Source of the DNA: Bacillota bacterium
Lineage (GTDB): Bacteria > Bacillota > Proteinivoracia > UBA4975 > VEMY01
Direction of reading: 5' to 3'
NCBI GenBank assembly: GCA_009711825.1
Contig: VEMY01000001.1
Span: 143,899-207,898 of the forward strand
DNA: 64,000 bases
The translations under genes were made by a program, and so were the position numbers. Below, one piece after another: positions 10,919-57,688 of the stretch (positions within the stretch are counted from its first letter, which is position 1; the number at the start of each line of letters is the position of its first letter). The notes below the pieces were generated by a model. That model had not been told where the DNA came from. It was given only the letters and a program-made list of their open reading frames with translations, and did not search any database.

Positions 10919-10951
10919 GTAAAGCCCCTGGCTCGTGTCGGGGCTTTAATA
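10919..10951. terminator. Bidirectional terminator between the iron-sulfur gene and DUF421 genes
   Basis: AAAGCCCC / GGGGCTTT inverted repeat with a nine-base loop, flanked by A and T tracts. It separates two convergent transcripts. Confidence 0.7.
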
Positions 10952-11656
10952 ATATATGCTCTCGCCAGTCGATACCTGCCTTTTCGCAGTTGTGTAGAGT
11001 GTGCCGTCAGATTCCAGCGCCGCAAGATAGACGTCTTCAATCTTTCCATGGCCCTGTTTCTGTAGTAGACTGTTCAACCAGCGCTCACTGCGTCCAATTT
11101 GCTCCAGGGCGCCTGGCACCCTCTCTCCATCGACGATCAGTAATGTTGGTAGTCCTTTAGCTGGCACCTTAAGTCCCATGTCCCTGGCGCTGGGCGGTGT
11201 TGCTTCTGTTTTTTTTAGTACACTTAGCTGTCCGCTGGGTTCAACAATGGCGTATTGAATTTCCGAGAGCTGAAAAATGTCCTTCTGTCTTAACATGCTA
11301 AGTAGGTCATTGACCGTGTAACGGATCCGGGCGATATTGTGCATCAGGAATGTGCCGTTGGCTACTACAACGGTAGGGGTGAGGGTGCTCCAGTCCCGAA
11401 CGATAGGTAGCTTAACCTTCAACCAGGTAAAGCTTATTTGAAATAGTGCAATGGCTATCACTGCTGCAAATGTCGGTCCATGCCGAATTGACGGATCAGC
11501 AATATCTGCGCCAACGACTGAGCCAATCGTTATTGCAACCAGGAAGTCAAAAATCGGTAACTCGCCGATACTGCGTTTACCCATCAATACTGTCATCAGA
11601 TACATAGCCGGAAACAGTGTAAAAATCCTGAATAGAACTATCAAGTAATCGTTCAT
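10946..11656 (-). CDS. DUF421 domain membrane protein (YetF-like), copy 2
   Basis: 236 residues. Three hydrophobic segments span about residues 5-25, 30-55 and 58-80, including the conserved MYLMTVLMGKRSIGELPIFDF and VAITIGSVVGADIAD. The cytoplasmic C-terminal half has the family pattern NGTFLMHNIARIRYTVNDLLSMLRQK and VEPSGQLSVLKK. B. subtilis YetF, YrbG and relatives share this layout; their function is not established. It lies 12 bases after a paralogue of exactly the same length, indicating a tandem duplication. Confidence 0.9.
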   Translation of the reverse strand: MNDYLIVLFRIFTLFPAMYLMTVLMGKRSIGELPIFDFLVAITIGSVVGADIADPSIRHGPTFAAVIAIALFQISFTWLKVKLPIVRDWSTLTPTVVVANGTFLMHNIARIRYTVNDLLSMLRQKDIFQLSEIQYAIVEPSGQLSVLKKTEATPPSARDMGLKVPAKGLPTLLIVDGERVPGALEQIGRSERWLNSLLQKQGHGKIEDVYLAALESDGTLYTTAKRQVSTGESIYY

Positions 11657-11668
11657 TGCGACCTCCGT

Positions 11669-12379
11669 TTAATAATGCAAGCTGCGTCCAGGATGATTAG
11701 AGCGCTTGGGTGACATGTACACACTCCCGTCACCTTCCAGCTGGGCTATATACACGTCCTCCATGGATGGGAGTCCCGATTTACGGATCTGGGTTTCCAG
11801 CCATTTTCGATCCCTGGGGCCATGTTTAAAGATGTTTGGCACCGGCCGACCATCGGCCACCAGCAACCAGGGCAGGCCGGTGTTGGAAACTTTCAGTCCC
11901 ATAGCCGCCGGTGTGAGGGGACTGGATTCTGCCTTTTTCAGTACACTTATATTTCCGTCTGGCTCAATAATCGCATACTCCAGCTCAGAAAGATTGAACA
12001 CCCCCTGTTTACGTAGCAAAGGCAGGATGTCATTAACTGAATAGCGGATTTTAGCCAGGTTATGGGTTAAAAACCGTCCGTTTTCAAAAATGACAGTTGG
12101 CGTAATATTCGCCCACTGTCGCACGCGCCGAGAGCGGATCTTCAGCCAGGTAAAGCCAAACTGAATCAAGGCAATCGCGACTATTGTCGCCAACGTTGGG
12201 CCGTGGGGCACTGCCGGGTCGGCAAGATCAGCGCCGGCAATCGAGCCGATTGTAATGACGATGATGAAGTCTAATACCGGCAGCTGTCCCATGTTTCGTT
12301 TTCCCATTAGCACCGTTACTACATACAGGAGTGGCCAGGTGATAAATACCCGGCCGATGATTACCAGGTATTCGTTCAT
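11669..12379 (-). CDS. DUF421 domain membrane protein (YetF-like), copy 1
   Basis: 236 residues, the upstream member of the pair. It has the same arrangement: three N-terminal membrane segments (VTVLMGKRNMGQLPVLDF, ITIGSIAGADLAD) followed by a soluble part (NGRFLTHNLAKIRYSVNDILPLLRKQ, EPDGNISVLKKAESSP). Both copies end in a short polar tail with a final aromatic residue pair (SLHY here, SIYY in the other). The ribosome site GGAGGT precedes the start. Clear duplicates that have since diverged along their length. Confidence 0.9.
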   Translation of the reverse strand: MNEYLVIIGRVFITWPLLYVVTVLMGKRNMGQLPVLDFIIVITIGSIAGADLADPAVPHGPTLATIVAIALIQFGFTWLKIRSRRVRQWANITPTVIFENGRFLTHNLAKIRYSVNDILPLLRKQGVFNLSELEYAIIEPDGNISVLKKAESSPLTPAAMGLKVSNTGLPWLLVADGRPVPNIFKHGPRDRKWLETQIRKSGLPSMEDVYIAQLEGDGSVYMSPKRSNHPGRSLHY

Positions 12380-13717: not shown

Positions 13718-13746
13718 AAAAAAAGGCAGCCTGCGTGGCTGCCTTT
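13718..13746 (-). terminator. Terminator of the ddh1-dapF-nhaC operon
   Basis: On the minus strand AAAGGCAGCC ACGCA GGCTGCCTTT followed by T residues, a strong 10-bp stem, about 14 bases after the nhaC stop. Confidence 0.85.
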
Positions 13747-13759
13747 AGTGATAAGAGTC

Positions 13760-15313
13760 TTATTTGGCAATGGGCTGGTCTTTGATGTCCACCGCCACTG
13801 TTCTACTAAGCAAGTAGAGTGCCACCAGCATGAATCCGAAGCCGCCTACCAATGAAATCAGCAGAGAGTTGGTGAGGCCAATTAGGATGAAGGCGGCCAC
13901 ACCAGATATGCCAGCTGTTAACGCATAGGGCAGCTGGGTATTGACATGGTCAATGTGATCACAGGATGTGCCGGTGGAGGAAAGAACAGTTGTGTCTGAG
14001 ATTGGTGAACAGTGATCACCGAGGATGCCGCCACTGAGCACTGCAGCAATCGTGGCGTAGAGATTAATATCCATACTCAGGGCAACCGGGATCGCAATTG
14101 GCATCAGAATTGCAAAGGTACCGTAGGATGTTCCGGTTGTAAAAGCGATTACGCCGCCCAAAAGGAAGATTACAGCGGGGATGAAGGCCGCGGCCAGGTT
14201 CTGTTCCGCGAAACCGACCACAAAGGTGTCTGTTCCCACCGCCTGGGCACCGGTGCCGATGCCCCAGGCCAGAACCAGGATGATATAGGCGCTCATCATG
14301 CCTTTAATGCCGCCAACGTAATAGTCAACACCTTCGCCGAAAGTGAATATTTTCTGGCCAACGCCCATTAACAGGGCTACAAATCCGGCTGCGACAGCGG
14401 CGATCAGAATTGAGAGTGCGCCGCTGGACTCGCCGATTGCCTCAACAAATCCTACATCTCCGCCATAGCCACCGGTCCAGAGGAACAGCGGGATGATCAT
14501 GCCGATTAGCACAATCAGCGGGACAATTAAATTCATCATCCGTGGCTTGGTGCCTTCCAGAGGCTGGACATCGGTAATTTCCTTAGAAACAGGGGGATTG
14601 GCGCCATCGGCCATGACTTTACCGGTTTTACGGGCACGATTTTCGGCTTTCGCCATCGGGCCAAATTCCCATTTTGTGAAGATAAGAATAAACACCAAAG
14701 ACAGAGCAAGCAGGGAATAGAAGTTGTAGGGGATGGTTCTGATATAGGTCAGGTACGGCGCGTCAGCCATACCGGCCTTGTCAAATTCGCTGCCAATGAG
14801 GCCCATGACATATACAACCCAGGTGGACACAGGAACCAGGAGACAGATGGGCGCGGCGGTAGAGTCGACGATGTATGCCAGCTTCTCCCGCGACACCTTA
14901 AGTTTGTCGGTGATTGGCCGCATCACGCTGCCAACAGTAAGGGCGTTAAAATAGTCCTCGAAGAAGATGACCAGACCAAAGCAGGCTGTTGCCAACTGGC
15001 CGCCCCGGGCGGTTTTTACCTTTTTGGAAATAGCGTCAGCTATCGCAAAGGCGCCGCCGGTCTTTTGCAGCATGGCAATCAGGCCGCCAAAGGCTGCGCC
15101 GTAAAGGATAACGGTAGCATTCCAGGATGAACCAAGATTTGGGATAATCATGTCCCGGAACATTGCGAAAAAGCCCAGGAACGGATTCCAGCCGTTGACC
15201 ATCGTCGCTGCCAACCATATCCCCAAAAATAGGGCCGGGATTACGCGCTTAGTGCGCATGGCAAGCAAAATTGCAACCAAGGGTGGTAGTAAGGACAAAA
15301 TGCCAAATTCCAT
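13760..15313 (-). CDS. nhaC: NhaC-family Na+/H+ antiporter-like membrane transporter
   Basis: 517 residues with about 11-12 hydrophobic segments across the whole length and GAGG upstream of the start. The family pattern is visible: ALFLGIWLAATMVNGWNP near residue 30, GLVIFFEDYFNALTVGSVMRPITD near residue 112, and GGILGDHCSPISDTTVLSSTGTSCDHIDHV near residue 430, the ion-transport family signature. Annotated relatives exchange Na+ for H+, and some move organic anions or amino acids. It is the last gene of a sigma-54-type operon with DAP enzymes, so transport of DAP, lysine or a related amino acid is a reasonable alternative to pure Na+/H+ exchange. That part is inference. Confidence 0.88.
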   Translation of the reverse strand: MEFGILSLLPPLVAILLAMRTKRVIPALFLGIWLAATMVNGWNPFLGFFAMFRDMIIPNLGSSWNATVILYGAAFGGLIAMLQKTGGAFAIADAISKKVKTARGGQLATACFGLVIFFEDYFNALTVGSVMRPITDKLKVSREKLAYIVDSTAAPICLLVPVSTWVVYVMGLIGSEFDKAGMADAPYLTYIRTIPYNFYSLLALSLVFILIFTKWEFGPMAKAENRARKTGKVMADGANPPVSKEITDVQPLEGTKPRMMNLIVPLIVLIGMIIPLFLWTGGYGGDVGFVEAIGESSGALSILIAAVAAGFVALLMGVGQKIFTFGEGVDYYVGGIKGMMSAYIILVLAWGIGTGAQAVGTDTFVVGFAEQNLAAAFIPAVIFLLGGVIAFTTGTSYGTFAILMPIAIPVALSMDINLYATIAAVLSGGILGDHCSPISDTTVLSSTGTSCDHIDHVNTQLPYALTAGISGVAAFILIGLTNSLLISLVGGFGFMLVALYLLSRTVAVDIKDQPIAK

Positions 15314-15331
15314 ATTATATAACTCCTCTCA

Positions 15332-16150
15332 TTAGTAGTTGCAGGCGCCGGGGAATATCTCTCCGCAGGCAACCAACAATGCTTGACCTTGTAACCAGAC
15401 TTCGTCAAACCGATTTTCAGCTAGCGTGAATTCTACCAGTAACTCACCTCCCAACATATTTACCTTGATCGGACTAGAAAATTGATGGGTAATTGCAGTG
15501 GTCAGTGCAGAGGCCGTGGCGCCGGTGCCGCAAGCCAGGGTTTCAGCTTCCACTCCCCGTTCATAAGTGCGCACCCAGATCTGGTCTTGTTCCAGGAAAA
15601 CGAAATTAACATTAGTGCCGCTCTCAAAATAGTTTAGCCGGCGGATCTTTTTCCCCAGGGTGTGCACTTGATTCCGGGGCCAATCAAGGCATTCCTGGTT
15701 GTAGACAATTGCATGGGGCACGCCAACCACCAGGGTGTGCATTTCCGGAAGCTCCGGGTCAGGCCGGATTGCAACGTGCGGAAAATCTATGGGCGGCATC
15801 TTGACGCGGACGGTATTGCAGTCAAGAACATTTGCCTGATATAAGCCGGCGCTAGTTTCAACCATCATTTCCCGGGGGCAGATTTTTAGATGTGTTGTCA
15901 GGGCTGCAAAGCAGCGGAGCCCATTGCCGCACATTTCACCATTGCTGCCGTCGGAATTGAAGTAGTCCATCCGTGCGTCAGCTTCTGTTGAACTTTCAAT
16001 AAACAGCATGCCGTCGGCTCCCAGCGATTTCCCGCGTTGACAAAGGGTTGCCGCCAGGCGTTCTTTATCTTGCTTTGAAAATTTGTCCGCGCGGTTGTCA
16101 ATGGCAATAAAGTCATTACCGCATCCGCTCAGTTTGTAAAATTTCAGCAT
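15332..16150 (-). CDS. dapF: Diaminopimelate epimerase
   Basis: 272 residues, the usual length. Both catalytic cysteines are present in their motifs: NGEMCGNGLRCFA (first Cys near residue 76) and ETLACGTGATASA (second near residue 220). The FYKLSGCGNDFI start and FESGTNVNFV segment also match. It interconverts LL- and meso-diaminopimelate without a cofactor. The start overlaps the 3' end of ddh1 by 7 bases and nhaC begins 18 bases after its stop. In this operon it would supply the meso isomer that DAP dehydrogenase acts on. Confidence 0.96.
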   Translation of the reverse strand: MLKFYKLSGCGNDFIAIDNRADKFSKQDKERLAATLCQRGKSLGADGMLFIESSTEADARMDYFNSDGSNGEMCGNGLRCFAALTTHLKICPREMMVETSAGLYQANVLDCNTVRVKMPPIDFPHVAIRPDPELPEMHTLVVGVPHAIVYNQECLDWPRNQVHTLGKKIRRLNYFESGTNVNFVFLEQDQIWVRTYERGVEAETLACGTGATASALTTAITHQFSSPIKVNMLGGELLVEFTLAENRFDEVWLQGQALLVACGEIFPGACNY

Positions 16151-17046
16151 AATTCCTTAATCACCTGTTTCCGTTCCCCCGGCAAAAAGTCCAATAATGG
16201 CAGATCTAACATTACATATGCGCCTGGTTGCTGCCGCAGAGCGCCCCGCAGCCCGGCGACCATCACCTGGGCAGTGACAGCTGGGTTGGTAATCCGGCAG
16301 CTATAGTCCAGGCATTGATTGTGCACGCCGCTGGCTACGCCGTGGCGCTGCATATGCACGCCGTGCCCCATGTCCAGCAGGTCGGAAACCCGTTCCACCT
16401 GACTGACGGTGGTCTTATCGTTGATGAAATACGGGTCGGTGCAGATTCTGTCTTTAACGGCTTTAAAATCTGCGCCGGTTTCAAGTTCCACATAGACATG
16501 GCGGTCGTGGATCCCCAGTCCTTTAGGAATTGTCATGGATAAAGCATCTCGGACGCCGTTTATTGCCTTGGCCGCCACGGTGTGCCCCATGCTCATGCCG
16601 GGACCGAAGTTGGTATGTGTGATGCCCTGGGGCGCGATAATCTCAAAGATTGCGCGAATCACTGAATCTGTGCCAGGATCCCAACCTGCTGCACTCACTG
16701 AGGCTGCTCCCCCCTCTTTGGCGCTGGCTTCCAAGGTATCCAGCATATCCAGTAAAGGCTGGCCGTGGATATCAAAACTGTCCGCTGTAGCTATACCCTG
16801 GCGCAGAAGCATCGGCGCTACCTGCGGGATCAAAATACTTGGCAGGCATAGCAGAACCCCATCCGGATTGGCCAGTTCGCCAAGATTGTCCACAACAGGA
16901 CAGGTGAATTCTGTCGCGATTTTTTCACAGAGCTCAGGCTGCTCAACAATACCGGTAAGTTCCATATCCGGGGCCGCTAGAACTGCGTTGGCGGCGTTTT
17001 TGCCCACGTTTCCACACCCGACTACAGCGACTTTGTAATTAGACAC
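16144..17046 (-). CDS. ddh: meso-Diaminopimelate D-dehydrogenase, sigma-54-linked copy
   Basis: 300 residues. The nucleotide-binding fold starts with VAVVGCGNVGKNAANAV; the substrate domain has SAAGWDPGTDSVIRAIF near residue 120 and FGPGMSMGHTVAAKAI near residue 150, the pattern of DAP dehydrogenases (compare GWDPG and GPGLSQGH in the Corynebacterium enzyme). It reversibly links meso-DAP with L-2-amino-6-oxopimelate (tetrahydrodipicolinate), ammonia and NADPH. This copy is first in the operon ddh1-dapF-nhaC behind a consensus sigma-54 promoter. A paralogue about 3 kb away is under a lysine riboswitch. I infer that this copy is the inducible, possibly catabolic one. Confidence 0.92.
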   Translation of the reverse strand: MSNYKVAVVGCGNVGKNAANAVLAAPDMELTGIVEQPELCEKIATEFTCPVVDNLGELANPDGVLLCLPSILIPQVAPMLLRQGIATADSFDIHGQPLLDMLDTLEASAKEGGAASVSAAGWDPGTDSVIRAIFEIIAPQGITHTNFGPGMSMGHTVAAKAINGVRDALSMTIPKGLGIHDRHVYVELETGADFKAVKDRICTDPYFINDKTTVSQVERVSDLLDMGHGVHMQRHGVASGVHNQCLDYSCRITNPAVTAQVMVAGLRGALRQQPGAYVMLDLPLLDFLPGERKQVIKELC

Positions 17047-17082
17047 CAGTCATTCCTCCTTGTTGCTGCTGACAATTATTAA

Positions 17083-17098
17083 AGCAAAAGCCGTGCCA
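17083..17098 (-). promoter_or_regulatory. Sigma-54 promoter for ddh1-dapF-nhaC
   Basis: Minus-strand sequence TGGCAC-GGCTT-TTGCT, an exact match to the -24/-12 consensus (TGGCAC, five-base spacer, TTGCW). The GC of the -12 element is at 17084-17085 and the ddh1 start codon at 17046, leaving a leader of about 25-30 bases. A sigma-54 activator gene lies immediately upstream. Confidence 0.85.
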
Positions 17099-17129
17099 TC
17101 CTTGTTCCGGGATTACACGGCTCCGGAGT

Positions 17130-17145
17130 GTTCGCTTTTGTGAAT
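17130..17145. promoter_or_regulatory. Activator-type palindrome, site 1
   Basis: GTTCGC-TTTT-GTGAAT, an imperfect member of the palindrome GTTCGC-TTTT-GCGAAC, 32 bases upstream of the sigma-54 -24 element. Confidence 0.65.
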
Positions 17146-17196
17146 GGAATGTCTTTGTCTGGGGCGTTGGGTATGGGTTTGTATGGGCTGCGGTGT

Positions 17197-17212
17197 GTGC
17201 GCTTTTGCGAAC
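17197..17212. promoter_or_regulatory. Activator-type palindrome, site 2
   Basis: GTGCGC-TTTT-GCGAAC, matching the palindrome with one mismatch, about 100 bases upstream of the sigma-54 promoter, a normal enhancer distance. Confidence 0.7.
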
Positions 17213-17217
17213 GTGAT

Positions 17218-17233
17218 GTTTGGTTTTGCAAAC
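17218..17233. promoter_or_regulatory. Activator-type palindrome, site 3
   Basis: GTTTGG-TTTT-GCAAAC, starting 21 bases (two helical turns) from site 2 and adjacent to the stop codon of the activator gene. Confidence 0.6.
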
Positions 17234-17235
17234 AG

Positions 17236-19068
17236 TCAGCGGAGGAGGTTGTATTTCTTTAACTTATGGTAGAAGTTTGTTCTGCCCATTTGCAACATAG
17301 ACATTGCCCGGGTACGATTGTTTTCAGTATGCTTGAGGGCAAGTGCCAGCAGTGATTGCTCTGTTAGTTCAATTGCCTGTTGATGGGGGATAACCTGGTT
17401 GACGCTTACGGCAGCTTTGGTTTGCGGTTGATGCAGGTCCGGGGGCAAGTGTTCCGGCAGCAACACTTTGCCTTCCGCAAAGTTAACACAGCGTTCAAGG
17501 ACATTTTCCAGCTCCCGGATGTTGCCCGGCCAATGATAATTGGTTAGCGTACGGATTAATTGGGGGTGGGGCATCAGCAGTGATTTCCCTGCCCGCTGAC
17601 AGATTCGGGGCAGCAACACATTGACTAGGTCAGGTATATCGCCGGGGCGTTGCCGGAGCGGCGGGAGCTCTAAACTGATTACATTTAGCCGGTAGAAAAG
17701 GTCTTCCCGGAATTTTCCCTCAGCTACCGCCTTTTCCAAGTTCCTGTTGGTTGCGGCAATAATGCGAACATCTAAGTCGATGGGGTGGTTTTCTCCCAGA
17801 CGTTGAATGCGGCGATTTTGGAGAGCATGGAGAATTTTTGCCTGTAGTGTTACGTCCAGCTCGCCAATTTCATCCAAGAATAGCGTGCCAGACTGGGCCT
17901 GTTCAAAGCTGCCGGCTTTGCCTTGGAGGCTGGCGCCGGTGAACGCTCCCGGGGCGTAACCGAAAAGTTCACTTTCCAGAAGAGTGCCTGGGATTGCCGC
18001 ACAGTTTACATAAACAAAGGGGCCTTCTGCCCGGGGACCGGTCTGGTGGATGACCTCTGCAAGTAATCCTTTGCCTGTGCCGCTTTCGCCTAATAAGAGG
18101 ACGGTTGAGTTGGAAGTGCTTGCCCGGGAAGCCAGCTCGCGAATGCGGTTAATCTCCGTGCTGCTGCCTGTGATGCGGGCGAACGCAGGGTGGGCTTGAT
18201 TTTCCTTCAGACGGCGTAGACTGGCTACGGCCTGATCCCGTTCTTCTTCCGCAATCCGCATCTCGCTGATATCTGTTACTTGCAGCATTGCTCCCTGGCG
18301 GATACCGTTGGTGTCAATCGGGTGGATAGAGCATCGGGTGGGGATGCCGTTTATTTCGTAATCTTGTTTTACAAAACCATTTTCTTGGCCGCCGGCAACT
18401 GTCAGCAGACGCTCAATTCCTAGATTCCGCGGGTGGATATCTGATATATGGCGGCCGATTACCTGGGGCAGATCCTGATTGCCTTTGGCCGTCCAGGGAG
18501 CGCCGTTAAGGATATCGCCGATGGCCTCGCCCCGAGCTGTGTAACCGGGGGCCTGGTAAAATTTAACCTGCAGGTCTGAAGAGAGGATGACCATGTGGCC
18601 AACAGCAATATGGTAATTGTATGGGAACCTTTGACCCTCCACATCAATCCAAAGCAGTCGCTGATTGCGGTCGTAGCCGGCAGATATTTTGCAATTGCCG
18701 CGAAGTGGAAAATCCATTATCACCGGTTCTGATTCATTGGTGAAGGTGCGAACCGCGGTACGTGCTTTGCCTGTTTTGACCTGGCCGACAGCCAGTATGC
18801 CCATATCCTTCTTAAGTTTAACCTGGCCTAGACCCAGTTGCTGTAAATGCTGTTTATCCATGTTCCCGTCATCTCTGCCAACGCGGTTGTTGGCGATTAT
18901 GACAATATCATCTTGTTCCAGGCGTCCAGATGGATGCCCGGGTCCAGGTGAGGGGAGCAGGCCGAAAAAATCCTTGGCCGTGTGATTATAAACCTTAATG
19001 ATACCATCCCGGTCGATAACGATTAGGCCTTGTTCCAAGAAATCACAGATATGCTGCAACCTTTCCAT
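17236..19068 (-). CDS. PAS-containing sigma-54-dependent transcriptional activator
   Basis: 610 residues from the ATG at 19068, with GGAGG 8 bases upstream. Residues 1-40 look like a PAS domain (ICDFLEQGLIVIDRDGIIKVYN). A second PAS-like sensor covers about 165-275 and ends at VTDISEMRIAEEE. The AAA+ domain has Walker A GESGTGKG near 332, the GAFTGA loop that contacts sigma-54 (ELFGYAPGAFTGA), Walker B LFLDEIGEL and the arginine-finger region FREDLFYRLNVI. The C-terminus is a Fis-type helix-turn-helix (TRAMSMLQMGRTNFYHKLKKY). It sits between two DAP dehydrogenase genes and beside a sigma-54 promoter, so DAP or a related amino acid is the likely signal, by inference. Confidence 0.94.
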   Translation of the reverse strand: MERLQHICDFLEQGLIVIDRDGIIKVYNHTAKDFFGLLPSPGPGHPSGRLEQDDIVIIANNRVGRDDGNMDKQHLQQLGLGQVKLKKDMGILAVGQVKTGKARTAVRTFTNESEPVIMDFPLRGNCKISAGYDRNQRLLWIDVEGQRFPYNYHIAVGHMVILSSDLQVKFYQAPGYTARGEAIGDILNGAPWTAKGNQDLPQVIGRHISDIHPRNLGIERLLTVAGGQENGFVKQDYEINGIPTRCSIHPIDTNGIRQGAMLQVTDISEMRIAEEERDQAVASLRRLKENQAHPAFARITGSSTEINRIRELASRASTSNSTVLLLGESGTGKGLLAEVIHQTGPRAEGPFVYVNCAAIPGTLLESELFGYAPGAFTGASLQGKAGSFEQAQSGTLFLDEIGELDVTLQAKILHALQNRRIQRLGENHPIDLDVRIIAATNRNLEKAVAEGKFREDLFYRLNVISLELPPLRQRPGDIPDLVNVLLPRICQRAGKSLLMPHPQLIRTLTNYHWPGNIRELENVLERCVNFAEGKVLLPEHLPPDLHQPQTKAAVSVNQVIPHQQAIELTEQSLLALALKHTENNRTRAMSMLQMGRTNFYHKLKKYNLLR

Positions 19069-19099
19069 ACGCACACCTCCATCGCCGTTTGGTACTTAT

Positions 19100-19115
19100 G
19101 TTCGCTTTTTAGAAC
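19100..19115. promoter_or_regulatory. Activator-type palindrome, site 4, upstream of the activator gene
   Basis: GTTCGC-TTTT-TAGAAC, 32 bases upstream of the activator start codon, in the gap between it and ddh2. It has the same half-site and spacer as sites 1-3, which suggests autoregulation. Confidence 0.65.
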
Positions 19116-19159: not shown

Positions 19160-20062
19160 TTAGCAGAGGTCCTCAATCAACTGTCTGCGTTCTCCTGGCA
19201 GGAAATGCAGCAGTGGCAAATCTAGCATTACATAAGCGCCGGGCCGCTGCCGCAGGGCCCCCCGCAGCCCGGCGACCATCACCTGGGCAGTCACCGCCGG
19301 GTTGGTAATTCGGCAGCTATAGTCCAGGCATTGATTGTGCACGCCGCTGGCTACGCCGTGGCGCTGCATATGCACGCCGTGCCCCATGTCCAGCAGATCA
19401 GACACCCGTTCCACCTGAAAAACAGTTGTCTGGTCATTGCGAAAATAAGGATCGGCGCAAATCTGCTCCCGGACAGTTTCCAAATTTGCCCCAGGTTCAA
19501 GTTCGACGTAAACATGTCGATCGTGAAGACCGCGTCCCTTGGGAATGGTCATCGAGAGAGCGTCCTTAACCCCATCAATTGCTTTGGCAACAACTGTGTG
19601 CCCCATACTCATCCCAGGGCCGAAATTAGTGTGGGTGATGCCTTGGGGAGCGATAATCTGGAATATCGACCGCACCAATGAGTCGGTGCCCGGGTCCCAA
19701 CCGGCCGCGCTTACCGAGGCAGTGTTGCCTTCGACGGCAGCTGTTTCCAGCGTGTCCAGGGTGTCAAGTAACGGCTGACCATGGATGTCGTAACTGTCGG
19801 TAGTGGCGATACCTTTGCGAAGATACTCTGGCGCAACCTGGGGGATGGTTGTGCTGGGAATGCAGAGGAGAGCGCCGTCAACCTTGCCCAGTCGAGCAAT
19901 GTCTTCGGTCACCGGAAAGTCATACATTTTTTTTACCCGGTTATTGGAGCGGTGTCTGACAACAATACCTGCTAATTCCATATCCGGCGAAGTAAGTACA
20001 GCGTTTACGGCGTTCTGACCGACATTTCCACAACCGACAACGGCAATCCTAGTTTTTGGCAT
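19160..20062 (-). CDS. ddh: meso-Diaminopimelate D-dehydrogenase, riboswitch-controlled copy
   Basis: 300 residues, same length as the other copy. It begins TRIAVVGCGNVGQNAVNAV and has SAAGWDPGTDSLVRSIF and FGPGMSMGHTVVAKAI. The last third is almost identical to ddh1 (VERVSDLLDMGHGVHMQRHG onwards), while the first 100 residues differ much more. GGAGG precedes the start. A lysine riboswitch with its own terminator lies directly upstream, so expression should fall when lysine is abundant, as expected of a one-step route from tetrahydrodipicolinate to meso-DAP in lysine and peptidoglycan synthesis. Confidence 0.93.
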   Translation of the reverse strand: MPKTRIAVVGCGNVGQNAVNAVLTSPDMELAGIVVRHRSNNRVKKMYDFPVTEDIARLGKVDGALLCIPSTTIPQVAPEYLRKGIATTDSYDIHGQPLLDTLDTLETAAVEGNTASVSAAGWDPGTDSLVRSIFQIIAPQGITHTNFGPGMSMGHTVVAKAIDGVKDALSMTIPKGRGLHDRHVYVELEPGANLETVREQICADPYFRNDQTTVFQVERVSDLLDMGHGVHMQRHGVASGVHNQCLDYSCRITNPAVTAQVMVAGLRGALRQRPGAYVMLDLPLLHFLPGERRQLIEDLC

Positions 20063-20112
20063 CAGTGGAACCTCCTAGTTTTATATAGCTATTTGCCTTA
20101 ATCACTTGGAAA

Positions 20113-20366
20113 ACAAAAAAAACGGCGGACCAATGCCTGCCGTTTTTGGCGATAATTGGCCTCATTCCCCGGGTGAAGTAGCTCACTGCTGCCGTCCAGG
20201 GGCGGACGACAACAGCAGTCCGGCAATTATTAATTGCCGGCCCAGCTGTCGGAACGGACGAACTCCGACGCTTCGGCGGCGGTTCCTTTCCTGTGCTTCA
20301 CTGCCCCGTCCGGGCTCCCCACAGTACTGATAACCAGCCGCTCCTCTACCTCACCTGCTGGTGAGG
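20113..20366 (-). promoter_or_regulatory. Lysine riboswitch (L box) with terminator, upstream of ddh2
   Basis: Reading the minus strand, P1 is formed by GGTGAGGTAG (20355-20346) and CTACTTCACC (20181-20172), which pair over all ten positions. Inside are the L-box landmarks: AGGAGC after P1, GGAAAGGAACCGCC, GCCGAAGC, the CTGGGCCGGCA region and GTGAGCTAC closing the core. About 25 bases after P1 a terminator follows: ACGGCAGGC and GCCGT arms with eight T (20146-20114). The layout is that of a transcription-attenuating OFF switch for DAP/lysine synthesis. Confidence 0.9.
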
Positions 20367-20557
20367 CAACTCTAAACTAAAAATTTTTATTTAGCTGTGA
20401 TTTTACGGCATTGGGGAATAATAGTCAACAACAAATTGCAAAAAACGAGTATTTTATTATCACTTTCCATTAGTAAAGCTGTGGCATGGTCTGGTTGAGA
20501 AAATATTGGCACTGTGGCATAATTAGTTGGAACTTACCAAAGGGAGGGTGCGCAATC

Positions 20558-21934
20558 GTGACTGAAAAGAAACTGGCGCCGCCATGGCGGATTAAGATGG
20601 TGGAGCCAATCACCCGGATTAGCCGTGAGGAACGGGAAAAGCTGCTGGAGCAGGCTGGTTATAATGTGTTTGCCTTGCCAAGTGACGCTGTCTACATAGA
20701 TTTGCTTACCGACAGCGGGACTTCTGCGATGAGTGACAAACAGTGGGGCGGACTACTCCAGGGCGATGAATCCTACGCCGGCAGTCGCAATTTCTATCAC
20801 CTGCGGGACACTGTCAAGGAGTTGATGGGTCTAGATTATGTTGTTCCCACCCATCAGGGGCGAGGCGCTGAAAATATTCTTTTCCAACATTTGATTAAGC
20901 CCGGTCAGTACATCCCTGGCAACATGCATTTTGACACCACCAAGGCCCACATCGAGATCAAACAGGGTCGGGCAGTGAACTTTGTCGCCGACATCACTCA
21001 TGACAGTCAGACATATCACCCGTTTAAGGGAAATTTTGACCTGGAGGCCCTGGAGAGGTTTGTCGCCGAGAAGGGTAAAGAAAATATTGCTTTTATCCTG
21101 GTGACTGCAACCTGCAATAGCGCCGGTGGTCAACCGATTTCCATGGAAAACATTCGTGGTGTTCGCAAAATTGCCGACAAATATGATTTGCGGGTGTTCA
21201 TTGATGCCGCCCGGTTTGCGGAAAACGCCTGGTTTATCCAGCAGCGGGAAAAAGGCTACCGTCAAAAATCAATTCCCCAAATCGTCCGCGAGATGTTTGA
21301 CTATGCCGACGGCTGTACAATGAGCGCTAAGAAGGATGCCTTGGTAAACATTGGTGGGTTTGTTGCGCTTAGGGATGAAGCCCTTTATCAAGAAGTTTCC
21401 CGGCTGGCGGTTGTGTTTGAAGGGTTCCCCACTTATGGAGGTCTGGCAGGCCGGGATATGGAAGCCATGGCCATTGGCTTGAAGGAAATCGTCGATCCCG
21501 GTTACCTGGAATACAGAATTTATCAGGTGGAGTATCTCGGCAACAGGCTGCGAGAGGCCGGTATACCAATTGTCTGGCCGGTGGGTGGTCACGCCGTCTT
21601 TGTAGACGGTCAGAAATTCCTGCCCCATATTCCCAAAGAACAATACCCGGCCCAGGCCCTCTGTATTGAGCTTTATAAAGAGGCAGGTGTGCGCGGTGTC
21701 GAGGTTGGTGGAGTTTTGGCTGGCCGCGATCCCGAGACTGGCGAAAACTTGTTCCCGCAATTGGACTTGTTGCGGCTGACAATCCCGCGACGGGTCTACA
21801 CCAATGAACATATGGATGTGGTTGCCGACGCTCTGATTGCAATAAAGGAACGGGCAGAAACTGTCCGGGGCGTTGCCTTTGTTGACGAACCGCCAATTCT
21901 GCGCCACTTTACAGCAACTTTTAAACTTGTTTAA
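20558..21934 (+). CDS. tnaA: Tryptophanase (tryptophan indole-lyase)
   Basis: 458 residues from the GTG at 20558, with AGGGAGG upstream. It belongs to the beta-eliminating PLP lyases: YIDLLTDSGTSAMSD, THQGRGAEN, SAGGQPISM and the PLP lysine in GCTMSAKKDALVN. To separate tryptophanase from tyrosine phenol-lyase I looked at two diagnostic places. VEVGG carries Val where phenol-lyase has its substrate-binding Arg, and LRHFTA carries His where phenol-lyase has Phe. Both favour tryptophanase. It converts L-tryptophan to indole, pyruvate and ammonia. A RidA gene follows, fitting disposal of the 2-aminoacrylate released by such lyases. Confidence 0.87.
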   Translation: MTEKKLAPPWRIKMVEPITRISREEREKLLEQAGYNVFALPSDAVYIDLLTDSGTSAMSDKQWGGLLQGDESYAGSRNFYHLRDTVKELMGLDYVVPTHQGRGAENILFQHLIKPGQYIPGNMHFDTTKAHIEIKQGRAVNFVADITHDSQTYHPFKGNFDLEALERFVAEKGKENIAFILVTATCNSAGGQPISMENIRGVRKIADKYDLRVFIDAARFAENAWFIQQREKGYRQKSIPQIVREMFDYADGCTMSAKKDALVNIGGFVALRDEALYQEVSRLAVVFEGFPTYGGLAGRDMEAMAIGLKEIVDPGYLEYRIYQVEYLGNRLREAGIPIVWPVGGHAVFVDGQKFLPHIPKEQYPAQALCIELYKEAGVRGVEVGGVLAGRDPETGENLFPQLDLLRLTIPRRVYTNEHMDVVADALIAIKERAETVRGVAFVDEPPILRHFTATFKLV

Positions 21935-22032
21935 CAAGTCTGCTTATGATTCATACTATAAGCGATGCTTGTTTGGCTTTTACTCTACTGAGTTAAAAGA
22001 CTGATTGATACCCAAATCAAGGAGGAAAAAAA

Positions 22033-22416
22033 ATGAACAGAACCATCATCAACACCGACAAAGCTCCCGCCGCCATTGGCCCCTATTCCCAAGCGGTACG
22101 GGTAGGCGACCTGCTCTTTACCTCGGGGCAAATCCCCCTTGTCCCTGGTAGTATGGAACTGGTAACCGGCGATATTCAGGCCCAGACCAAGCAATGCATG
22201 GAAAATGTCAAAGCAATCCTCGAGCAAGCAGGTACCAATATGGACAACTGCATCAAGCTGACAATCTTTATCAAGGACATGAATCAGTTTGGCGCCATCA
22301 ATGAAGTCTACGGCACATACTTTGGCGATAATCCTCCCGCCCGGGCCTGCGTAGAAGTAGCGCGGCTGCCCAAGGACGTGGACATCGAAATCGAGGCAAT
22401 TGCCCTGGTGAAATAA
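22033..22416 (+). CDS. ridA: RidA family enamine/imine deaminase
   Basis: 127 residues with AAGGAGG before the ATG. The family motifs are present: APAAIGPYSQAV at the N-terminus, LFTSGQIP, and PPARACVEVARLPKDVDIEIEAIA with the catalytic Arg in the ARAC segment. RidA hydrolyses reactive 2-aminoacrylate and other imines made by PLP enzymes. It lies about 100 bases after tryptophanase, a PLP beta-eliminating enzyme that produces this intermediate, so co-expression makes sense. A terminator follows. Confidence 0.95.
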   Translation: MNRTIINTDKAPAAIGPYSQAVRVGDLLFTSGQIPLVPGSMELVTGDIQAQTKQCMENVKAILEQAGTNMDNCIKLTIFIKDMNQFGAINEVYGTYFGDNPPARACVEVARLPKDVDIEIEAIALVK

Positions 22417-48507: not shown

Positions 48508-48544
48508 TAGCAGTGGGAAGTAAAAAAAATCACATACTATCGGA

Positions 48545-48752
48545 TGACGAATACGGGAGAGACCCTCTGGGCGCCGAAGGAGCAAACCGGCAGCTGCCCG
48601 GCTGTCGGCACTAACTCTCAGGCAAAAGGACCGTATTCCGACGAAACTCTGGAAAGTCCCAACGGGACACCGACGGAGCAAATCCCTATGTTTAGGGGTT
48701 AATCTCTCAGGTCCATAGACAGAGGCAGCGGCAATTATGTCGCTGTTTTTTA
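48545..48752 (+). promoter_or_regulatory. Tandem glycine riboswitch with terminator, upstream of the grd operon
   Basis: Aptamer 1 (about 48550-48640): CGGGAGAGACC, GCGCCGAAGGAGCAA, AACTCTCAGGCAAAAGGACCG. Aptamer 2 (about 48640-48725): GAAACTCTGGAAAGTCC, CACCGACGGAGCAAAT, AATCTCTCAGGTCC, AGACAGAGG. A stem CAGCGGCA / TGTCGCTG with six T at 48726-48752 forms the terminator. In relatives such tandem switches turn genes on when glycine is present, which fits induction of glycine reductase. Confidence 0.95.
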
Positions 48753-52492: not shown

Positions 52493-53791
52493 ATGAGCAA
52501 ATTGCGTATCGTCCATTACCTCAACCAGTTCTTTGGTCAGGTTGGGGGCGAGGACAAAGCCGACACTCCTCCTTTTGTCAAGGAAGGGCCGGTCGGCCCC
52601 GGCACTGCCCTGCAGGCCGCCCTGGCCGATCAGGCAGAAATAGTAGCCACGGTGATTTGTGGCGACAGTTGGTTTAATGAGAATATTGAGGATGCCCAAA
52701 AGCAAGTCCTGTCAATGATTTGCGAGCAGAAGCCAGATCTGGTAATTGCCGGCCCCGCGTTTAACGCCGGGCGCTATGGTGTCGCTTGCGGCGCGGTCGC
52801 CCAGGTGGTTAATCAGGAGTTGGGAATTCCGGTGGTCTCAGGCATGTATCCCGAGAACCCGGGCGTGGAGATGTACCGTAAGTACGCCTGGATTGTTGAG
52901 ACCGGTGACTCGGCTGCGGCCATGCGGAAGGCAGTTCCAGCAATTATCAATCTGGTTGGAAAGTTGATTGCCGGGGAGCAGCCCGAGAGCGGTTATATCA
53001 AGCGGGGTATCCGCCAGAACTACTTTGCCCAGGAGCGGGGTTCGAGGCGGGCAGTGGATATGCTGGTTGCAAAACTGAAGGGTGAGGGCTTTGAAACCGA
53101 ATACCCAATGCCCAGTTTTGACCGGGTGGAACCCCAGCCCGCATTAAAAGACCTGGCTAAAGCCAAGATTGCGCTTGTAACTTCTGGTGGCATTGTTCCC
53201 AAGGGCAATCCGGATCACATTGAATCTTCCAGTGCTTCAAAATACGGCAAGTATGATATCGACGGCGTCAACGATTTGACCGCAGAAACATTTGCCACTG
53301 CCCACGGCGGCTATGACCCCGTATATGCAAACCAGGACGCTGATCGGGTCCTGCCGGTGGACGTCTTGCGGGAACTAGAAGCAGAAGGCAGAATTGGTTC
53401 TTTGCATCGGTACTTCTACTCCACCGTTGGCAACGGAACTGCAGTGGCCAGCGCCAAGAAGTTTGCGATTGAAATTGCAGCCGATCTGAAGCAGGATGGT
53501 GTTGATGCCGTGATACTAACCTCCACCTGAGGCACCTGTACTCGTTGCGGTGCAACGATGGTGAAGGAAATTGAACGCGCCGGCCTGCCGGTGGTGCATA
53601 TGTGTACGGTTGTTCCGATTTCAATGACTGTGGGCGCCAACCGAATCCTGCCAACAGTGGCGATTCCCCATCCCCTAGGCGACCCGAATATGCCTGCCAC
53701 CGACGAAAAGGATCTGCGTCGCAAGCTTGTCGAAAAGGCGCTTGCGGCTCTGACAACTGAAGTAGAAGGTCAAACGATATTTGAAGACTAA
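52493..53791 (+). CDS. grdB: Glycine reductase component B gamma subunit, selenoprotein (in-frame TGA)
   Basis: 432 residues from the ATG at 52493 with GGGGGG upstream. Codon 346 is TGA (53528-53530), read as selenocysteine: LTST-U-GTCTRCGATM, the UXXCXXC site of GrdB/F/H. After it the frame continues HMCTVVPISMTVGANRI and IPHPLGDP to the stop at 53789. Together with GrdE it binds glycine and transfers the carboxymethyl group to GrdA. Without Sec decoding the gene would appear as two frames. Confidence 0.96.
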
Positions 53792-57453: not shown

Positions 57454-57527
57454 ATTTGTCACCTCGCAAAAATACTCTTTACCAGCTAAGCATAATCTGT
57501 TATTATCTAATTGACAATATTATATCG

Positions 57528-57688
57528 GTCATGGGGAGCCCCTGCCAGGGGCTGAGAAAGGGCTTATAGTACCTGACCCACAACCTGATCAGGGTAATGC
57601 CTGCGTAGGGAGAATTCACAAGCAAAACGCATCTCCCGGTGCGTTTTATGTTTTTGAAGCTGCAGGCACGCCTTAGGCGTGCTTTTTG
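57528..57688 (+). promoter_or_regulatory. TPP riboswitch (THI element) with expression platform, upstream of thiT
   Basis: The aptamer at 57528-57613 has GGGGAGCCC, GGCTGAGAAAGGGC, TACCTGACCC, ACCTGATCAGGGTAATGC and GCGTAGGGA, nearly perfect consensus. A hairpin AAAACGCA / TGCGTTTT follows at 57622-57648, then a terminator GGCACGCC TTA GGCGTGC TTTTT at 57664-57688. Expected behaviour: thiamine pyrophosphate terminates transcription of the thiamine transporter. Confidence 0.95.

Follow-up and report, generated by a model that had tools for sequence, protein, structure and literature searches.

We describe here a locus within a 64,000-nt stretch of contig VEMY01000001.1 (the window) which, as judged from its sequence, is probably a sigma-54 regulon for the uptake and use of diaminopimelate (DAP) under its own activator. 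The host is a spore-forming bacterium with an assembly of 3.09 Mb in 77 contigs that is 99.8% complete. The operon ddh1-dapF-nhaC is predicted to encode a meso-DAP dehydrogenase, a DAP epimerase and a DAP importer. The gene of a sigma-54 activator adjoins this operon on its upstream side, and the ~190 bases between the activator gene and ddh1 hold three palindromes and a -24/-12 promoter box. Palindromes and box recur in the loci of some scattered, distant relatives, in which the transporter differs but ddh and/or dapF are retained.

DAP is characteristic of bacterial cell walls and plentiful in dead biomass. A dedicated regulated route for its uptake was not found in the open-access literature searched, nor was sigma-54 control of a DAP operon, in agreement with an earlier note on this DNA, whose author knew of no such operon. 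The dedicated sigma-54 activators of Clostridia are mostly concerned with amino-acid use and with fermentation, and ddh or dapF are among the targets of none of the 39 activator groups in the clostridial reconstruction (PMC6615313). Diaminopimelate is mentioned neither there nor in the 2025 cross-phylum regulon reconstruction (PMC12316311). In Bacillus thuringiensis, diaminopimelate decarboxylase lies behind a poor sigma-54-like site (TTGGAGATGTTGATGCG) with an unknown activator (PMC4428206); this case concerns another gene, and lysine synthesis. A dedicated sigma-54 and activator switch for DAP use does not seem to have been described before. The conserved set of activator, binding site and operon offers a testable route of DAP uptake and a sequence handle for finding cell-wall feeders.

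Results

Layout of the locus and its promoter

Along the minus strand, transcription would pass from a lysine riboswitch and a hairpin with T run through ddh2 and the activator gene to ddh1, dapF, nhaC and a terminator (Table 1). The close packing of the operon genes claimed in the earlier note was found as stated, with a 7-base overlap of ddh1 and dapF and an 18-base gap between dapF and nhaC. The strong terminator after nhaC is likewise borne out by hairpin energy and T run; a consensus-based terminator scan did not list this hairpin.

Table 1. Features of the DAP locus in the window, listed in the direction of transcription
Feature	Position	Strand	Basis or remark
Lysine riboswitch	20171..20356	-	RF00168, 92.2 bits vs gathering threshold 30, E 5e-23; precedes ddh2
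Hairpin and T run after the riboswitch, probable expression platform (terminator)	20113..20150 (approximate)	-	fold of 20105-20175
ddh2, second DAP dehydrogenase	19160..20062	-	75% identical to ddh1
Fourth activator-type palindrome, GTTCTAAAAAGCGAAC	19100..19115	-	just 5' of the activator gene; one of three exact genome matches
Sigma-54 activator (enhancer-binding protein)	17236..19074	-	PAS-like N-terminus; AAA+ with GAFTGA; Fis-type HTH; PF00158 (Sigma54_activat), PF25601 (AAA_lid_14), PF02954 (HTH_8)
Candidate activator site, GTTTGCAAAACCAAAC	17218..17233	-	one of three exact genome matches
Candidate activator site, GTTCGCAAAAGCGCAC	17197..17212	-	palindrome, conserved type
Candidate activator site, ATTCACAAAAGCGAAC	17130..17145	-	palindrome, conserved type
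Sigma-54 -24/-12 promoter, TGGCACGGCTTTTGCT (TGGCAC-GGCTT-TTGCT)	17083..17098	-	exact match, GG and GC correctly spaced
ddh1, meso-DAP dehydrogenase (type II, Symbiobacterium-like)	16144..17046	-	TIGR01921, 257 bits vs cut-off 180.6; GTG start at 17046
dapF, DAP epimerase	15332..16150	-	TIGR00652, 223 bits, above cut-off
nhaC-family transporter, predicted DAP importer	13760..15313	-	PF03553
Intrinsic terminator	13722..13746	-	10-pair hairpin, -17.3 kcal/mol, z -5.5, then T run

The box before ddh1 is an exact match, as the earlier note had recognized, while its distance of 25–30 bases from the gene had to be corrected: the -12 end lies 36 bases from the GTG start. Taken alone, the exact box is weak evidence because the strict pattern has a second copy within the nhaC coding sequence (13809–13824). 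Throughout the host genome TGGCACN5TTGCW has six exact matches compared to one for the reversed-pattern control. Matches with up to two mismatches occur at chance frequency. Three of the six exact matches lie inside reading frames; the other three are intergenic, each with a sigma-54 activator gene directly upstream, namely at this locus, on C36 before a tryptophanase-like gene and on C40 before ato-type genes. The host possesses rpoN (TIGR02395, 452 bits), and no sigma-70-like match was found on the minus strand of 17047–17235.

The copy in coding sequence and the chance frequency of inexact matches are what one would expect if the box were a chance match and the operon were expressed from an ordinary promoter. 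This reading is barely credible in view of the adjoining activator gene, the activator genes before all intergenic exact boxes, the lack of a sigma-70-like match in that interval and, above all, the conservation across loci described below, on which it was rejected. The case for the promoter is carried by its position, the adjoining activator gene, the activator sites and the conservation in relatives, by which sigma-54 control of ddh1-dapF-nhaC is strongly supported.

The activator and its palindromic sites

The candidate activator sites follow the palindromic form GTTCGC-AAAA-GCGAAC. Exact matches to GTTYNNAAAANCRAAC occur only three times in the 3.09 Mb, twice at this locus; the third (C38) looks coding and was set aside. 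With at most one mismatch there are 22 matches in the genome, four of them here, against 32 background matches to the reversed control pattern; it is the clustering of the palindromes, rather than their count, that stands out. The palindrome directly before the activator gene points to possible autoregulation; no sigma-54-like site with three or fewer mismatches was detected near 19100–19115.

The best curated match of the activator is the PrdR model NF041552 of the proline reductase activator, covering residues 204–609. Assignment as a PrdR-type proline regulator was rejected: the score of 379.8 bits is well under the 795-bit cut-off, residues 1–203 are unmatched and the targets are other ones. 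A sequence profile of the N-terminus gave weak PAS-like matches in the PDB (E ≥ 0.08), and its AlphaFold model, with a mean pLDDT of 51.5, was not used for a fold search. Only 85 bases without a convincing terminator (z -0.12) separate ddh2 from the activator gene, from which we infer that the two are co-transcribed.

Conservation of the arrangement

Among the first 100 relatives by kinship no activator-ddh-dapF-nhaC cluster was found; the association emerged only from a wider search with Ddh and from one with the activator N-terminus. The Ddh alignment, searched against species genomes, led to two metagenome-assembled genomes of Thermosediminibacterales (L084, L086), in which an activator homologue with 43–44% identity over nearly its full length stands directly before ddh, with box and palindromes in between. 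The N-terminus search, run over 399 genomes of the phylum, hit nine, the host included, with one copy in each; these orthologues and those of the two Thermosediminibacterales genomes mostly adjoin ddh and/or dapF-nhaC. L186 has activator, three palindromes, box and ddh-dapF-nhaC in the same order as the window. In L183 and L185 activator, palindrome, box and ddh-dapF are followed by a further palindrome and box before a Liv-type ATP-binding cassette (ABC) transporter, and in L184 the activator precedes ddh and an Opp ABC transporter. In L187 activator and ddh are followed by what remains of dapF and nhaC in fused form and by a DppA-like gene; L188 has a box, dapF-nhaC and the activator; L189 has the activator only; and L190, a diverged case, combines a Ddh of another type with a Liv-type transporter.

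Sites and boxes were analysed in nine loci (the window, L084, L086 and L183–L188), of which L183–L185 represent one family and are not independent. In all nine, palindromes and then a -24/-12 box at the same relative place precede the target genes, so that the promoter, whose lack of conservation the earlier note had named beforehand as a ground for giving it up, proved to be conserved. The loci contain 16 palindromes compared to 0.19 expected, for a pattern that was derived at first from the window, L084 and L086 and, once L183–L185 were known, loosened at two positions; the boxes in the nine loci compare with two or fewer in any of 300 shuffled sets. The first target gene is ddh in eight of the nine loci. 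The co-regulated transporter can be of the NhaC, Opp, Liv-type or DAACS family, four families unrelated to each other; L086 and L184 show no clear operon members besides ddh and the transporter. In L084 a GreA gene on the opposite strand separates dapF from the ddh operon, and dapF was therefore not counted as a member. In the Ddh tree the two copies of the window form a loose group with those linked to the activator in L084, L086 and L183–L187 (support ≤85 at the joining forks), and the L190 copy falls with the other Ddh type.

Products of the operon genes

The closest solved relative of Ddh1, aligned end to end, is a single enzyme, the type II meso-DAP dehydrogenase of Symbiobacterium thermophilum (3wb9/3wbf). 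Ddh1 keeps the columns that are invariant across 11 homologues in the type II Ddh alignment. DapF has both catalytic cysteines (MCGNG, ACGTG), and its gene is the sole dapF copy in the host genome.

A second NhaC-family transporter of the host (L066:8405-9913, host C19) is LysW-like and stands under a lysine riboswitch (98 bits). LysW, the NhaC-family lysine transporter controlled by a lysine riboswitch (PMC5584792), belongs to the same superfamily as the operon NhaC, which differs from it in being under sigma-54. The operon NhaC is 41% identical to the riboswitch-controlled host copy and 41–42% identical to NhaC of the L186 and L188 operons; its bit scores are higher with the latter.

DAP and lysine genes of the host

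The host genome contains one dapF, one lysA, two ddh and at least two NhaC-family genes, and lysine riboswitches precede lysA, nhaC2 and ddh2. Within the set of PMC5584792 a lysine riboswitch directly before ddh, as at ddh2, is known from Tepidanaerobacter acetatoxydans only; neither an activator gene nor a sigma-54 operon is mentioned there.

DapB was not found above cut-off in the host assembly, whereas it is present in 12 of 14 control genomes; the top match below cut-off is a 349-residue protein that resembles 2,4-diaminopentanoate dehydrogenase and lies in an ornithine-degradation cluster. DapH and DapL were also below cut-off, each of these absences coming from a single family search, and succinyl DapD had no separate search. 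DapA is present by a match to its own model, in an apparent spore dipicolinate operon (L209:4753-9292, C7). We take this operon to be spoVFA-spoVFB-asd-dapG-dapA, the names besides dapA following from size, order and knowledge of B. subtilis. Of the enzymes that the biosynthetic dehydrogenase route needs before Ddh, DapA is thus there and DapB was not detected; the routes that need DapF would call for DapL, or for DapH with partners. DAP may thus have to be supplied from outside, and more activator may be made under lysine shortage. The lack of DapB could also reflect a gap in the assembly.

Discussion

In the mechanism that we propose, the activator would act via the GTTCGC-AAAA-GCGAAC-type palindromes on the -24/-12 promoter of ddh1-dapF-nhaC, a step supported by the sequence, and its N-terminal half may sense DAP or a related signal. 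NhaC would import DAP freed from the walls of other cells, DapF would equilibrate LL- and meso-DAP, and Ddh1 would deaminate meso-DAP oxidatively, with reduced cofactor, ammonia and L-2-amino-6-oxopimelate as products. The meso-DAP dehydrogenase family is known to carry out oxidative deamination reversibly (PMC7424261). In the host, imported DAP probably also feeds lysine synthesis by LysA and the cell wall, since no DapB, DapH or DapL was found and the riboswitch-controlled ddh2 lies upstream of the activator gene. With the activator gene placed behind the riboswitch-controlled ddh2, a shortage of lysine would increase the activator level and hence DAP uptake.

The OrdR regulon of Clostridiales, ord-ortBA-oraSEF-orr-nhaC (PMC6615313), shares with the locus a sigma-54 promoter, a dedicated adjacent activator with its own sites, and the union of an amino-acid dehydrogenase, a racemase and NhaC in one operon for diamino-acid use. 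It differs in serving ornithine, not DAP, with other enzymes.

Several points weigh against a regulon for the uptake and use of DAP. The substrate is inferred from enzyme families, and most of what is known of Ddh concerns biosynthesis. The lysine riboswitch before ddh2 suggests that this copy serves to supply lysine; without DapB the host has no way back to aspartate semialdehyde; and outside the host genome the identical gene order occurs in one lineage only (L186). The earlier note had proposed that the unit could import and degrade DAP or lysine-like amino acids instead of making them. Import is well supported by the gene context, whereas degradation in place of synthesis stands only half supported, given the lysine riboswitch of ddh2 upstream of the activator gene and the missing DapB, DapH and DapL.

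These missing genes, the position of the sole dapF in this operon and the lysine riboswitches before lysA, nhaC2 and ddh2-activator are what salvage alone would predict, with DapF epimerising imported DAP for LysA and the wall, no degradation, and a minor or reverse role for Ddh1. Yet salvage does not require Ddh, whose gene comes first among the targets in eight of the nine loci and is, in L086 and L184, the only clear operon partner of the transporter; moreover, at least one activator-bearing genome has DapL. We regard salvage alone as rather unlikely. The position of ddh favours deamination as a core step, while riboswitch and missing genes favour salvage in the host; the two are not separable by sequence, and we think that both run together. 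Beyond this, a two-tier cascade can be envisaged, possible but doubtful, in which the lysine riboswitch sets the level of the sigma-54 activator and the activator starts DAP scavenging once DAP is available. The host would then depend on DAP from the walls of other bacteria, without vegetative DAP synthesis and with DapA kept for spore dipicolinate only. If it is true that the host lacks DAP synthesis, it would be a spore-former that relies on other organisms for a wall component it cannot do without, and in which a riboswitch acts on a sigma-54 switch.

An operon that boosts the synthesis of meso-DAP and lysine, in which an unrecognised or unassembled DapB feeds tetrahydrodipicolinate to Ddh, would suit the classical biosynthetic roles of Ddh and DapF, the presence of DapA and a riboswitch before ddh2 as in T. 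acetatoxydans (PMC5584792), and a gene may be missing from 77 contigs. Against this, no DapB scored above cut-off at 99.8% completeness, DapA sits in the spore dipicolinate operon, and DapF would be superfluous because Ddh yields meso-DAP directly. Elsewhere the operon is linked to importers and peptidases rather than to lysine-synthesis genes only; linkage to such genes alone was what the earlier note had named as counter-evidence to its own reading. On neighbours and missing genes an ordinary lysine-synthesis operon is improbable and was rejected as the principal explanation. Slightly less probable still is a substrate other than DAP, such as another diamino acid or a D-amino acid (from wall peptides, or lanthionine-like), handled by Ddh and DapF of changed specificity. 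In PMC7084900 the type II Ddh of Symbiobacterium is reported to take 2-keto acids as substrates for amination; some loci have DppA-like and D-cysteine-desulfhydrase-family genes close by, and one PDB relative of DapF is an O-ureido-serine racemase. However, Ddh1 and DapF score above the curated cut-offs of DAP-specific models and the type II Ddh columns are kept; because two enzymes that are both DAP-specific occur together, we argue for DAP as the substrate.

Neighbouring genes and further observations

Genes for a DppA-like D-aminopeptidase, an amidohydrolase, M20 proteins and alanine racemase occur near activator loci or near the closest ddh relative, the first two kinds frequently, and this company matches the expectation for uptake and use of cell-wall peptides or DAP. 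This closest relative of the window ddh (L071, 66%) has no activator; at L071:4413-13146 (G007, a genome from the same taxonomic order as the host) alanine racemase, M20 amidohydrolase, DppA-like D-aminopeptidase, ddh and Opp transporter genes stand in one run, likely a cell-wall-peptide operon. At L187:10729-11685 (G278, a genome in a single contig) one reading frame of 318 residues is all that is left of dapF and nhaC; in it the first two thirds of DapF run on into the last part of NhaC, as though the operon had lost a stretch from its interior. At L183:14563-16829 (G342) the Liv-type transporter is followed by two genes, one of the D-cysteine-desulfhydrase family and one for DapL (above cut-off), which are not found there in the congener L185.

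The two other sigma-54 units of the host with exact box and adjacent activator lie before a tryptophanase/tyrosine phenol-lyase-like gene (C36, L067:1130-4229) and before thiolase, CoA-transferase and AtoE-like genes (C40, L069:3803-9441). Divergent from the riboswitch-ddh2 unit, the window contains at 20486-22416 (+) a gene of the tryptophanase/tyrosine phenol-lyase family, which scores below the equivalog cut-offs of the TnaA models, and after it a gene for a RidA-type deaminase. Further elements of the window are tandem glycine riboswitch aptamers (48544-48724, +), a SECIS_4 element with a probable selenoprotein gene (53531-53568, +), a thiamine pyrophosphate (TPP) riboswitch (57522-57628, +) and two tandem genes for similar membrane proteins of 236 residues, probably a duplicated pair (10946-12379, -).

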